Below, one piece after another: positions 32,292 through 57,915 of a stretch of 64,000 bases of DNA (positions are counted from its first letter, which is position 1; every line of letters begins with the position of its first letter). The position numbers and the translations under genes are program-made. This stretch comes from Phreatobacter cathodiphilus (lineage in GTDB: Bacteria > Pseudomonadota > Alphaproteobacteria > Rhizobiales > Phreatobacteraceae), in assembly GCF_003008515.1 (NCBI RefSeq), contig NZ_CP027668.1:2348001-2412000 (forward strand), in the 5' to 3' direction. The notes beneath the pieces are model-generated. The model was not told the DNA's origin. It did no database searches and saw only the letters and a list, made by a program, of their open reading frames with translations.

Positions 32292-32306
32292 TTAACCAGT
32301 TCTTAA
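32292..32306 (+). promoter_or_regulatory. perfect CtrA box (TTAA-N7-TTAA)
   Basis: TTAACCAGTTCTTAA lies between the divergent SnoaL-like gene (start 32208) and the membrane protein gene (start 32369). Both half sites are exact, and the left half reads TTAACC like the known preference for TTAACC. CtrA is the alphaproteobacterial cell-cycle/motility response regulator. Confidence 0.65.
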
Positions 32307-54122: not shown

Positions 54123-54365
54123 TCAGTCCGACGTCGGAAGGCGGCGCATCGTGAACTCGATGCGCCCGTCCTCCAGTTCGCGCCAGAACTCGACCTCGGT
54201 CAGATAGGCGGCGCGGGGAAACCGGTCGAGGATTTCCCGCGCCTTGATGCGGGCCGCATCGCGCGGCAGCACGAAGGTCTCGCGCTTCCAGCCGTCGGAT
54301 TCGCGGCTCGCCGACCCCGGCGCCCGGCGGAATGCGTCGAAGGGTCTGCGGCCGCCGGATCTCAT
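54123..54365 (-). CDS. small protein of unknown function
   Basis: An 80-residue basic soluble protein with RETFVLPRDAARIKAREILDRFPRAAYL and EFWRELEDGRIEFTMRRL, helical in look. No signal peptide. I do not recognise the family. Its 5' end lies 20 bases downstream of the FeeM-like gene's stop, transcribed in the same direction, so it could be a second gene of that unit. Confidence 0.6.
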   Translation of the reverse strand: MRSGGRRPFDAFRRAPGSASRESDGWKRETFVLPRDAARIKAREILDRFPRAAYLTEVEFWRELEDGRIEFTMRRLPTSD

Positions 54366-54385: not shown

Positions 54386-55099
54386 TCAGGCCGCGGCGGC
54401 CGCTCCGGCCACCGCCACCTTGACGCGGCTCCGCCGCGGTCCGAACAGGCGCTCCTGCTCCTCGCGCGTCGAGGCCATGAACGGATAACGCTTGTAGACG
54501 CTCTGCCGCATCAGCGGAAACGACACGCCCATCAGGTTGATCGGGTTCTTCAGGTTCGGATAGTAGCGCGCCTCGCCGACCGGTTCCATGAACAAGAGGC
54601 GGCGGTAGAAGGCCCGGTGCTCCGTCCTCACCGTCGCCAGCGCGTAGTCCGCCTCCGCGTGTTCGGAGGCGAGCATGCCCATGCGCACGGTCGCGTAGGG
54701 CAGGCCGGGATGGAGCCGCGAGGACTCGTGATCGACGACGAAGCGGGTGGGGTCGACGATGGTCTCCCCCGCCGCGATCCGCGGGCCCAGGATGTCGCCG
54801 AAGACGGCCAGGGCCGGCGCGATCGGTTCCTCCGGGGTGGCGACGTGGACGCGGATCGAGCTCGCGAGCTGGCCGTCGAGATAGAGCCCGAAGATCGAGA
54901 CGTTGGGCGCCCGGTCGAGCTCGTCCTCGAACAGCCCCGTCTCGTTCTCGGCGATGGCTCCTTCGCGCAGGTAGCAGTCGTAGCGGAGGCGATAGACCGC
55001 CCGGCGATCCTCCTCCGCCTCGATCCGCCGGTAGGTCACCCGCGCGATCAGGTCGGCGACGTTGCGCGAGAACGAGCCGTCAGCATTCGCCGTTGTCAT
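54386..55099 (-). CDS. FeeM-like N-acyl amino acid synthase, LuxI-fold GNAT
   Basis: A 237-residue protein whose core, from about residue 20 (VTYRRIEAEEDRRAVYRLRYDCYLREGAI), has the LuxI/FeeM fold: RLRYDCYLREG early helix, NVSIFGLYLDGQLASSIRVHV near 65-85, DPTRFVVDHESSRLHPGLPYATVRMGMLASEH near 115-145, and HRAFYRRLLFMEPVGEARYYPNL. These enzymes join an acyl chain to an amino acid or homoserine lactone. The product is unknown. The start at 55099 is preferred over an upstream in-frame start that gives a basic leader. Two CtrA boxes lie just upstream. Confidence 0.82.
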   Translation of the reverse strand: MTTANADGSFSRNVADLIARVTYRRIEAEEDRRAVYRLRYDCYLREGAIAENETGLFEDELDRAPNVSIFGLYLDGQLASSIRVHVATPEEPIAPALAVFGDILGPRIAAGETIVDPTRFVVDHESSRLHPGLPYATVRMGMLASEHAEADYALATVRTEHRAFYRRLLFMEPVGEARYYPNLKNPINLMGVSFPLMRQSVYKRYPFMASTREEQERLFGPRRSRVKVAVAGAAAAA

Positions 55100-55149: not shown

Positions 55150-55164
55150 TTAATGCTTTTTTAA
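55150..55164 (-). promoter_or_regulatory. perfect CtrA box 1 upstream of the FeeM-like gene
   Basis: TTAATGCTTTTTTAA fits the TTAA-N7-TTAA consensus exactly. It ends 51 bases upstream of the FeeM-like ATG on the minus strand. The surrounding 400 bases (55100-55499) hold no gene. Confidence 0.65.
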
Positions 55165-55182
55165 CGTCTGGAAAGCGTTTGG

Positions 55183-55197
55183 TTAAATCATCGTTAA
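55183..55197 (-). promoter_or_regulatory. perfect CtrA box 2 upstream of the FeeM-like gene
   Basis: TTAAATCATCGTTAA is a second exact TTAA-N7-TTAA site, three helical turns (33 bases) further upstream than the first. Tandem boxes of this kind are typical of strong CtrA-regulated promoters. Confidence 0.65.
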
Positions 55198-55466
55198 CGC
55201 AGGCGCGGAAACACAATTAAATACACGAAACGTTATGATGATACCGCCATGTCGGAGATATTTTTACTCTGCCGCGCCGCCGCGTGATCCGCCGCGGCTC
55301 CGGCCCACCGCGCCGCCCGGCGAACCAGAAAGCGGGTATTCGACAGCAAAAACGAGGGAATTCCGGCGCCGACGGGCGGACGAGGCCGCGTTTTCAGCCC
55401 GCAGGCGGCGTGACGCGGCCCGAGGATCGGCAGCGGCTCTGCGCGGCTCGCACAGTCATGGTCGTG

Positions 55467-55499: not shown

Positions 55500-57812
55500 T
55501 CACGCGGCGCGGCGCAGCAGGTCCTTGCCCGACCGGCCCATCAGCGCGGTGAGCTGCGCGTCCGGGATCGCCGGGCTGAGGATGAAGCCCTGGACCTCGC
55601 TGACGACGCCGGGCGCGTCGATCAGCTTGAGCTGCTCCAGCGTCTCGACGCCTTCGACGACGACCGACAGGCCGAGTTCCGATCCGAGGCGGGTGACGCC
55701 GCGCAGGAGCTTGGCGGCCTTCCGGTCGGTGGTGATGGAGCGCACGAAGGAGCGGTCGATCTTGACCTTGTCGATCGGGAACTTGTGCAGGTAGCTGAGG
55801 CTCGAATAGCCGGTGCCGAAATCGTCGAGCGCCAGCCGCACGCCCATGGCCCGCAGCCTGTTGAGGCTGTCGAGGACGGCAGCGGAGTCCTTGAGCAGCA
55901 GGGTCTCGGTGATCTCGAGCTCGAGACGGTCCGGATCAAGGCCTGTCGCCTTCAGCGTTTCGGCGACGAGTGCCACCACGTCGTCACGCTCGAACTGGAC
56001 GGAGGAGAGGTTGACCGAGACGCGCACCCGGTCCGGCCAGGCGACGCAGGCCTGGGCCGCCTTGCGCATGACCTGTCGGCCAAGCTCGATGACGAGACCC
56101 GTCTCCTCGGCGACGGGGATGAAATCGCCCGGCGAGATCATCCCGCGCACCGGATGCGGCCAGCGCACCAGCGCCTCGCAGGTCGTGATGGTCAGCGACT
56201 TGAGGTTCAGCATGGGCTGGAAATAGACCGCCAGCTCTTCGTTCTGGATCGCCTTGCGCAGATCCATCTCGATCGCCCGGCGTGCCTGGGCCTGGCGATC
56301 CATCTCCTCTTCATAGAAATGCAGGATGCCGCGGCCGCCGGCCTTGGCGCGGCTGAGCGCCATGTCGGCGCTCTTCAGCAGCTGGTCCGGATCGCGGCCG
56401 TCGCGCGGCGCCAGGGCGATGCCGACCGAGGCCCCGATCGCGATGGGCTTCTCGTCGATCTGCGTGATGTCGCTGATGGTCTCGATGATGCGGGCGGCGA
56501 GAGTGGTGACGTCGTTGACGGTGCGGCCACCGCTCTGCAGCACCACGAATTCGTCGGCGCCGAAGCGGGCCACCACGTCGTTCTCGCCCACGGCGAAGCG
56601 CAGGCGGTCGGCGACCGCCACCAGCACCGCGTCGCCCACCGTATGACCGAGTGTGTCGTTGACCTGCTGGAAGTGGTCGAGGTCGACGAAGAGTACGGCC
56701 AGCATGTCGTCGTCGGCGGTCATGGCGAGGGCCGTTTCCAGCCGCTCCTGGAACAGCGACCGGTTCGGCAGTCCGGTCAGGGCATCATGGCGCGCCATAT
56801 GGGCGATCCGCGCCTCGGTCCGGCGCTTCTCGGTGATGTCCTCGATGGCGACCACGAGACCACCGGTCTCCATGGGCTGGAAGGTCAGGTCGACGTTGCA
56901 GCCGTTGGCCTGCAGCTCGAACTGTTCGCGCGCCAGGCCGTCGACGCGCCGGGCCACGGCGTCGAGTACCCGGCCGCCGTCACGCTCGCTGAGGATGCCG
57001 AGATCGACATAGGCGGCGACGATGGCACGGGCCCTGGCGCCGGGGGCGAGGCTGTCGGGATCGAGCGGCAGAATCTGCGCCCAGCGGCGGTTGACCACCA
57101 CTAGCCGGCCGTCGGCGTCGAACATGGCGAGGCCGTGCGGCATGTTGTTGAGGGCGGTGTCGAAGCGGTCGGCGAGCAGCGACACGTCGCGCTTGGCGAT
57201 GATGGCGTTGAGCAGGATGTCCCTGAGGCGGCGCGCAATGCTGCGCACGCTGCCGAAGAAGGGCACCGCAAAACAGGCCAGGATCAGATAGTCCCAGACC
57301 CCCGTCATCACCATGCCCAGCACCAGGGGCGCGCAGAGAAGGGCGATCTGGTTGTCGACGAAGGGGCCGTTGGCAAAGTTCCGGCCGGTGACGCCCACCA
57401 TGTAGGACAGTGCCACCGAGACGCAGAACAGGTGCGCCGCCATCGACTGCGTCAGGTTGAAGGTCGCGAAGCACCAGATGCCGATGGTGAAAACCAGGAG
57501 ATTGGCGCCGACCGTGTACTCGCGCTCCCAGCGCAGCGCCTGCTCGTAGGTCACCACCTCCGTGCGCACGCGCCTGTAGGCCATCATGCGCATCGTGCGC
57601 ACGGCGCCGATGAGGACGATGGCGAAGGGAAAGCAGACGAGCAGCGGGTGGCCGGTGAGATAGGCCGTGTAGACGGTGCCCGCGAGGGCTGCGACGATCC
57701 CCAGCAGCAGCGAGCGCACGTCCTCGTAGAGCGCATCGACCATCGAAACGTAAATTTCGACGGGCAGCTCGCGCATCATGTCGCTCGATGACTTGCCCTG
57801 CACGCGCGTCAT
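55500..57812 (-). CDS. membrane GGDEF-EAL protein, probable c-di-GMP phosphodiesterase
   Basis: A 770-residue protein. Several hydrophobic helices (first at about 34-53 and 56-74) form a membrane sensor region, then a PAS-like domain, a GGDEF domain and an EAL domain. The cyclase motif reads GADEF instead of GGDEF, and no RxxD inhibitory site is seen. The EAL part is complete: EALVRW, NLSS, ETLL, DDFGTGYSS, KIDRSFV, EGVE and QGFILSPAIP. It therefore probably degrades c-di-GMP. The ATG at 57812 is preferred over a TTG 60 bases upstream. The palindrome CAATTAATTG lies at 57892-57901. Confidence 0.88.
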   Translation of the reverse strand: MTRVQGKSSSDMMRELPVEIYVSMVDALYEDVRSLLLGIVAALAGTVYTAYLTGHPLLVCFPFAIVLIGAVRTMRMMAYRRVRTEVVTYEQALRWEREYTVGANLLVFTIGIWCFATFNLTQSMAAHLFCVSVALSYMVGVTGRNFANGPFVDNQIALLCAPLVLGMVMTGVWDYLILACFAVPFFGSVRSIARRLRDILLNAIIAKRDVSLLADRFDTALNNMPHGLAMFDADGRLVVVNRRWAQILPLDPDSLAPGARARAIVAAYVDLGILSERDGGRVLDAVARRVDGLAREQFELQANGCNVDLTFQPMETGGLVVAIEDITEKRRTEARIAHMARHDALTGLPNRSLFQERLETALAMTADDDMLAVLFVDLDHFQQVNDTLGHTVGDAVLVAVADRLRFAVGENDVVARFGADEFVVLQSGGRTVNDVTTLAARIIETISDITQIDEKPIAIGASVGIALAPRDGRDPDQLLKSADMALSRAKAGGRGILHFYEEEMDRQAQARRAIEMDLRKAIQNEELAVYFQPMLNLKSLTITTCEALVRWPHPVRGMISPGDFIPVAEETGLVIELGRQVMRKAAQACVAWPDRVRVSVNLSSVQFERDDVVALVAETLKATGLDPDRLELEITETLLLKDSAAVLDSLNRLRAMGVRLALDDFGTGYSSLSYLHKFPIDKVKIDRSFVRSITTDRKAAKLLRGVTRLGSELGLSVVVEGVETLEQLKLIDAPGVVSEVQGFILSPAIPDAQLTALMGRSGKDLLRRAA

Positions 57813-57915
57813 ATCGACAGAAGAACCAATCGGGGGGCTGGTCGGGGAGGACCGGCTTACCGATCGAATCAATCAAAAAAAACTTGCCCATCAATTAATT
57901 GGCGAGAGATGGTTG

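Follow-up and report, generated by a model that had tools for sequence, protein, structure and literature searches.

Why should the gene for a LuxI-fold synthase in Phreatobacter cathodiphilus lie just behind two perfect copies of the recognition box of CtrA, the cell-cycle regulator, and what might such a synthase serve? The sequence-only reading of the window (the whole 64,000-nt stretch of DNA analysed here) had proposed a tandem pair of exact TTAA-N7-TTAA boxes upstream of a FeeM-like gene and had judged the pair to be more than background. Both boxes are indeed there, with starts 33 bases apart (Table 1), and the pattern occurs three times in the window as against no match in 100 dinucleotide shuffles of it. 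The gene behind them was likewise aptly named, its product matching the Pfam FeeM family with an E of 2.3e-45 and 154.7 bits against a curated cut-off of 27. The start codon matters here, since the most upstream start, a TTG at 55216, would place both boxes within the feeM ORF; aligned starts across the genus support the ATG at 55099 as the probable start, leaving 83 nt to the distal box and 50 nt to the proximal one. The third box of the window, at 32292-32306, has a SnoaL_2 gene on one side and, on the other, a 201-aa ORF that matches no Pfam family.

Table 1. Features of the feeM locus, in window coordinates
Feature	Position	Strand	Basis and remarks
Distal CtrA-type box TTAACGATGATTTAA	55183..55197	(-)	Exact match; half-sites palindromic
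Proximal CtrA-type box TTAAAAAAGCATTAA	55150..55164	(-)	Exact match; 50 nt to FeeM ATG
CTTTCC element directly 5' of proximal box	55170..55175	(-)	Family consensus lines; candidate -35
FeeM-family acyltransferase (LuxI/NAS-type synthase), 237 aa	54386..55099	(-)	Pfam FeeM PF21926
80-aa ORF 3' of FeeM	54123..54365	(-)	No Pfam family
Partner: about six hydrophobic segments, PAS_7, GGDEF (here GADEF), EAL	55500..57872	(-)	Pfam, hydropathy

The box also recurs across the 4,494,445-bp genome (one contig), where 20 exact copies compare with 2 of the reversed control pattern AATT-N7-AATT, and pairs within 50 bp occur at only two sites, the feeM promoter and 2318759/2318796 (37 bp). In 20 other genomes of the order, however, the control pattern is often about as common as the box, or commoner, so that genome-wide enrichment alone is weak there; the strong evidence for the boxes lies in their position and conservation. 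Sixteen of the 20 genomic boxes fall entirely between mechanically called ORFs (in 17 stretches covering all 20 sites), and four (467251, 2318796 and the two feeM boxes) fall in first codons if the most upstream start is used. Genes near boxes encode a methyl-accepting chemotaxis protein (MCP), a flagellar rod protein, FliX, FlgI, an N-acetylmuramoyl-L-alanine amidase, a sigma-54 response regulator and a DUF1465 protein, as well as FliO, which scores below its Pfam cut-off; an ABC ATPase beside one box is read as FtsE, and another box lies 0.8 kb before dnaA with a further ORF in between. Such a set of neighbours has the typical look of a CtrA regulon. Other boxes flank outer-membrane proteins, a mechanosensitive channel, an amidohydrolase and ETF-QO, for which a cell-cycle role is not obvious. 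CtrA itself is present, with an orthologue at 2424841-2425521 that is 82% identical to Caulobacter CtrA across residues 1-227 of the latter (E 3.2e-125).

Several further sites were considered along the way. The only other tandem pair, at 2318759-2318810, lies between a gene of the Peptidase_C93 family, which we take to be the LapG-type family, and ETF-QO, and on the strength of these Pfam flanks we rejected it as a ccrM promoter. We also rejected the feeM boxes as part of a replication origin, a dnaA gene lying at about 3.04 Mb. Elsewhere an identical 15-mer, TTAATTGGCGGTTAA, occurs at 3555514 and 3570306, 14.8 kb apart, preceding a DUF3426 gene and an FtsE-like gene respectively; some of the ORFs at either end of the intervening DNA are lower in third-position GC, a pattern that an inserted island with duplication of this CtrA box could give.

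Conservation upstream of orthologous genes, whose absence the sequence-only reading had said would speak against it, is extensive. Our search of 397 genomes of the order returned 88 FeeM matches in 85 genomes, 87 of which were used (L109, with no tblastn match, was dropped); those above 105 bits were taken as orthologues (76 in 75 genomes) and the 11 lower-scoring ones as remote FeeM, and near-copies within the genus (L018-L021) were left out of the counts. All 12 genus genomes searched, the source genome included, carry feeM, with the distal box exact at the matching place in every one and the proximal box exact in seven and one mismatch away in the other five. It is the proximal box that matches, by its distance, the single box of most other families. 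Within 200 nt upstream of the 76 orthologues, the box is exact in 46 and present with at most one mismatch in 70 (Table 2), the corresponding figures for the other families being 34 and 58 of 64. Exact boxes are found in eight of the nine families with FeeM orthologues in the sample, although the species counted are related and the occurrences are not independent events. Nine other 200-nt windows of the orthologue loci hold no exact box, and boxes with at most one mismatch appear among them in 1 of 76 loci at -400 to -200, in 15 of 75 at 800 to 1000 (all f35) and otherwise nowhere. Six orthologues lack a box even with one mismatch allowed (one each in f16, f23 and f28, and all three g34 loci of f34), and none precedes any of the 11 remote FeeM genes.

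Table 2. CtrA-type boxes within 200 nt upstream of FeeM orthologues, by family
Family	Orthologues	Exact box	Box with <=1 mismatch
f1 (source genus)	12	12	12
f35	16	16	16
f6	19	9	19
f23	15	4	14
f16	7	2	6
f34	4	1	1
f28	1	0	0
f29	1	1	1
f42	1	1	1

Could such boxes be chance, or a likeness inherited along with TTAA repeats in AT-rich intergenic DNA, without any involvement of CtrA? The reversed control pattern, common in several relatives, would allow for this, yet it appears in only 2 of the 76 orthologue upstream windows, and 200 dinucleotide shuffles of those windows yield on average 0.42 exact boxes (maximum 3) against the 46 found, and 7.4 (maximum 14) with up to one mismatch. Furthermore, among the gaps between upstream TTAA half-sites, 7 is the commonest (46/76), followed by 2 (22), 18 (12), 6 (11) and 19 (9). 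Outside the box, promoters from families that share about 40% protein identity have little in common: in 70 promoters aligned on the box, and hence with half-sites conserved by construction, every other column stays at or below 0.9 bits. We thus regard chance or inherited likeness as very improbable, and direct control of feeM by CtrA, as predicted from these promoters, as very probable. As a separate observation, 15 of the 16 f35 loci (e.g., L037 and L083) carry a one-mismatch site such as TTTACAACCCATTAA downstream of FeeM, 826-920 nt past its start, possibly serving the next gene.

Whether CtrA would switch feeM on or off is a question of geometry. A second full box is mostly missing outside the genus, and in its stead an upstream TTAA half-site recurs at -34, in 14 of the 16 f35 and 4 of the 19 f6 loci; -34 is the commonest half-site offset outside the genus (19/58 loci), and the genus itself (f1) has -33 in all 12 loci. 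A spacing of 33-34 nt, or about three helical turns, suggests cooperative binding on one face of the helix. For Caulobacter, the available part of one report associates activation with a full box whose 5' nucleotide stands at -39, and repression with one whose 5' nucleotide stands at -14 (PMC4287350). With the 5' nucleotide set at -39 here, leaders would measure 26-29 nt in f1 and 17-25 nt in 14 of 16 f35 loci; 15 of 19 f6 loci would be left with 0-13 nt, and four f23 loci with a negative length, so one mode of CtrA action does not suit all families. On balance the box geometry appears to fit activation in the source genus, a reading we hold somewhat better than evenly, and not in every family.

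The opposite sign would have CtrA repress feeM from a box lying between a CTTTGCA or CTTTCC -35 and a -10 that overlaps the second TTAA, so that feeM would be on when CtrA is absent; this alternative concerns the sign only. Consistent with it, both f35 and f1 have CTTTCC (CTTTGCA in f35), a possible -35 promoter element, some 6-13 nt before the box, and the distance from box to ATG is short in f6 and in four f23 loci, where an activator at -39 would have no room (in f23, 15-18 nt separate the four exact boxes from the ATG, and 66-82 nt the ten with one mismatch). The repressing position at -14 in Caulobacter offers a precedent (partial text of PMC4287350), and in some other families a repressor position between the CTTTGCA-like element and the second half-site is the better match. 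Activating geometry, by contrast, yields normal leaders in f1, f16 and f35, and in the reported case of CtrA acting on a synthase the effect is activation (PMC4046655, partial text). Repression is a possibility that we rate below even odds.

What the synthase makes is less readily deduced. The residues conserved in the fold, R39, D59 and R83, are present in 76 of 76 orthologues, and R119 in 75, and the FeeM profile reaches the LuxI-type synthases EsaI (0.0047) and TofI (0.024), both weakly. Position 116, however, is Asp in 73 of the 76 orthologues, that of the source genome included, as against Glu in all 11 remote FeeM proteins, and TofI has a Glu (of ELSRF) where Asp116 stands. We infer, from alignments in which FeeM itself does not figure, that the Glu at this position is the catalytic one (Glu95 of FeeM, Glu103 of Nas354); in Nas354, according to the part of the report available, changing it to Ala abolished activity (PMC4897644). 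Asp116 could still act as the base. The substitution means that enzymatic activity is not to be taken for granted and makes the product of this FeeM subfamily uncertain, so that of the earlier label "acyl-amino-acid synthase" the family assignment holds by Pfam and the product does not follow from it. Other comparisons added little: one of five orthologues scanned (L060) passes the PF00765 cut-off, phmmer of the FeeM protein against PDB sequences returned nothing relevant, and an AlphaFold model built from five close sequences reached a mean pLDDT of 42. The subfamily belongs to the order, as far as a class-wide search of 385 genomes goes, in which five had any FeeM match and none outside the order exceeded 105 bits (best 66). 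An ORF similar to the 80-aa one follows FeeM in 10 of the 12 genus genomes.

More telling for function than the boxes are two features absent from the sequence-only reading, the gene next to feeM and the exchange of feeM for another synthase gene beside it. The ORF next upstream of feeM, encoded on the same strand, is 790 aa long if begun at a TTG, its true start being probably further in, and combines a hydrophobic N-terminus with PAS, GGDEF and EAL domains (Table 1); no Pfam domain precedes the PAS, where the hydrophobic segments stand instead. A query of 243 residues from an inner ATG matched 94 times at 60 bits or more across the 397 genomes searched in the order, in 93 of them. Such a partner is found no more than 5 kb from 74 of the 76 FeeM orthologues, 72 on the same strand and two divergently (G338 and G391), and in most loci it is directly upstream of FeeM. 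We considered whether the boxes might serve a divergent neighbour and rejected this, the partner gene being co-directional in 72 of the 74 pairs. From this linkage, feeM and the partner gene are in all likelihood functionally paired. The EAL motif is kept in all 72 readable FeeM-linked partners, whereas GGDEF is intact in 53 of 64; genus copies have GADEF or SADEF in all five that are readable (the other seven are incomplete), and f23 copies have MGDQF, VGDQF or MGDEF in 6 of 15. With EAL constant and GGDEF varying, the phosphodiesterase motifs are the partner's constant feature.

RpfF makes DSF fatty-acid signals, and RpfF-type genes stand beside the same kind of partner in place of FeeM. Among 19 genomes with the partner and without a FeeM orthologue, 15 have an RpfF-type crotonase gene within 500 nt of it. 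One such protein (L116) finds as its best four PDB sequences 7zq7, 3m6m, 5fus and 6dgn (1e-59 to 3.6e-47), of which two bear the name RpfF and two that of crotonase or enoyl-CoA hydratase, with the next match at 2e-17; in NCBIfam, this protein and two others (L119, L120) match PRK08788 above its cut-off and RpfF second, at 2e-65 to 5e-70, below that model's cut-off. Five further RpfF-type proteins carry the ECH_1 crotonase domain, and the remaining genes were called by similarity to L116 or L121, the weakest (G300) at 30% identity. Of the remaining four genomes, one (G187) has RpfF near the end of another contig than the partner, and three (G294, G360 and G365) have no RpfF adjoining the partner in the stretch examined and none in the genome at an E of 1e-30. 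In a further genome (G228), additional to the 19, RpfF adjoins a partial partner copy (L135). In two genomes, represented by longer stretches of the same genes (L174 and L175, replacing L127 and L132), the partner is preceded by RpfF and followed by a short convergent crotonase-like ORF.

The two synthase types rarely meet. RpfF was found in 53 of the 397 genomes and together with a FeeM orthologue only in G346, where about 10 such genomes would be expected if the two were independent (the P of 1e-4 is overstated, the species being related), and the source genome has no RpfF match at an E of 1e-30. A quick tree built from 95 partner sequences requires a single change of the FeeM/RpfF label, so that at least one exchange is shown, not many. 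CtrA-type boxes also precede RpfF genes, exactly in 11 of 53 and with at most one mismatch in 31, compared with 0.16 and 3.3 in shuffles that, for these promoters, preserved composition only; the 15 genes beside the partner account for 4 and 10 of these and the other 38 for 7 and 21. A hybrid histidine kinase, recognised by a motif through which it presumably resembles RpfC, stands beside RpfF in 21 of 41 stretches, with kinase domains in all three scanned, and the membrane domain of the partner showed no similarity to that of RpfC-like kinases. In f34, a box no more than one mismatch from exact precedes nine of ten RpfF genes (among L146-L164), in most cases 59-71 nt from the start, and many of these genes adjoin hybrid histidine kinases.

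RpfF and the PAS-GGDEF-EAL protein RpfR are a known synthase-receptor pair, and the best overall reading of the feeM locus is consequently a CtrA-controlled acyl-signal synthase whose product is sensed by an accompanying c-di-GMP enzyme, a reading to which we assign a probability of roughly 0.6. CtrA would bind both boxes in the promoter of the FeeM-subfamily gene and thereby tie the making of an acyl compound (an N-acyl amino acid or something closely related) to the cell cycle or the motile phase; the partner, as the likely sensor and effector of that compound, would respond by altering c-di-GMP, chiefly by way of the EAL phosphodiesterase motifs that it keeps intact and much as in RpfF-RpfR. 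The signal-receptor part draws on analogy and on the gene exchange, and we consider perception of the acyl signal by the partner to be evenly balanced. Tentatively, and at somewhat less than even odds, the scheme may extend to a CtrA-controlled module in which either the FeeM subfamily, with its Asp for Glu, or the unrelated RpfF feeds a membrane PAS-GGDEF-EAL receptor and the signal resets c-di-GMP. In Caulobacter, c-di-GMP acts on the CtrA pathway.

Control by CtrA might instead serve a different product, a membrane lipid or surfactant (an N-acyl amino acid) made at one stage of the cell cycle, with the GGDEF-EAL neighbour being no sensor and merely sharing the theme of motility and biofilm. 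One study, in its accessible portion, describes FeeM-type N-acyltyrosines as surface-active and their physiological role as unclear (PMC4897644), and two such synthases, Nas343 and Nas354, carry a PilZ c-di-GMP domain, which provides a link to c-di-GMP without a receptor role. A lipid role would nevertheless not lead one to expect that a family of signal synthases, RpfF, should replace FeeM next to such a partner, and we think this explanation unlikely.

If the signalling reading is true, the cell cycle would set a self-made acyl signal that resets c-di-GMP, and many Hyphomicrobiales would gain a conserved branch of chemical signalling tied to CtrA, in contrast to the scattered CtrA sites described at LuxI/LuxR genes in the available part of an earlier survey (PMC4046655). 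FeeM-type enzymes, whose role the partial text of PMC4897644 calls unclear, would have both a concrete role and a receptor proposed for them. In these bacteria the cell cycle, signalling and the switch of lifestyle may thus be connected.

Control of LuxI synthases by CtrA is already known, and a module of FeeM with a GGDEF-EAL protein was not found described in the literature searched; we found no mention of such a synthase in the portions available of CtrA studies on Sinorhizobium (PMC4433202), on alphaproteobacterial CtrA prediction (PMC2877005) and on a stalked budding bacterium (PMC7200025). The closest regulatory parallel is Dinoroseobacter shibae, in which, according to the accessible text, CtrA activates luxR2I2 and luxI3 and expression falls without CtrA (PMC4046655). 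There as here, CtrA-type sites (predicted in our case) precede a gene for a synthase of acyl-signal type, but those are PF00765 AHL synthases with LuxR partners, whereas the present ones are of FeeM type (PF21926) with a GGDEF-EAL partner. The same source, in the part available, surveyed 89 genomes with PF00765 and describes the CtrA sites at LuxI/LuxR genes as scattered in Rhizobiales and Rhodobacterales (PMC4046655), unlike the exact box of eight in nine orthologue-bearing families here; since L060 passes the PF00765 cut-off, a few FeeM genes could be among the matches of that survey. The organisation of the gene pair recalls RpfF/RpfR of Cronobacter and Burkholderia, where a synthase gene likewise adjoins one for a PAS-GGDEF-EAL protein (74 of 76 loci here); rpfF and rpfR are convergent, and RpfR binds the fatty-acid signal, as the available part of the report states (PMC6361424). 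Convergent order is also seen in several of our RpfF loci. The receptors would appear to differ at the N-terminus, RpfR beginning with an FI domain and the partner with hydrophobic segments, and the synthases differ in that RpfF has the crotonase fold, whereas the 74 loci here have FeeM and, in addition, CtrA-type boxes. With FeeM, NasY and Nas343/Nas354, finally, the synthase shares a FeeM domain scoring over the Pfam cut-off and the nearly invariant Arg and Asp residues of the fold, while departing from remote members in its Asp for Glu; and where Nas343 and Nas354 carry a fused PilZ domain, the subfamily described here has instead CtrA boxes and a separate c-di-GMP partner gene.
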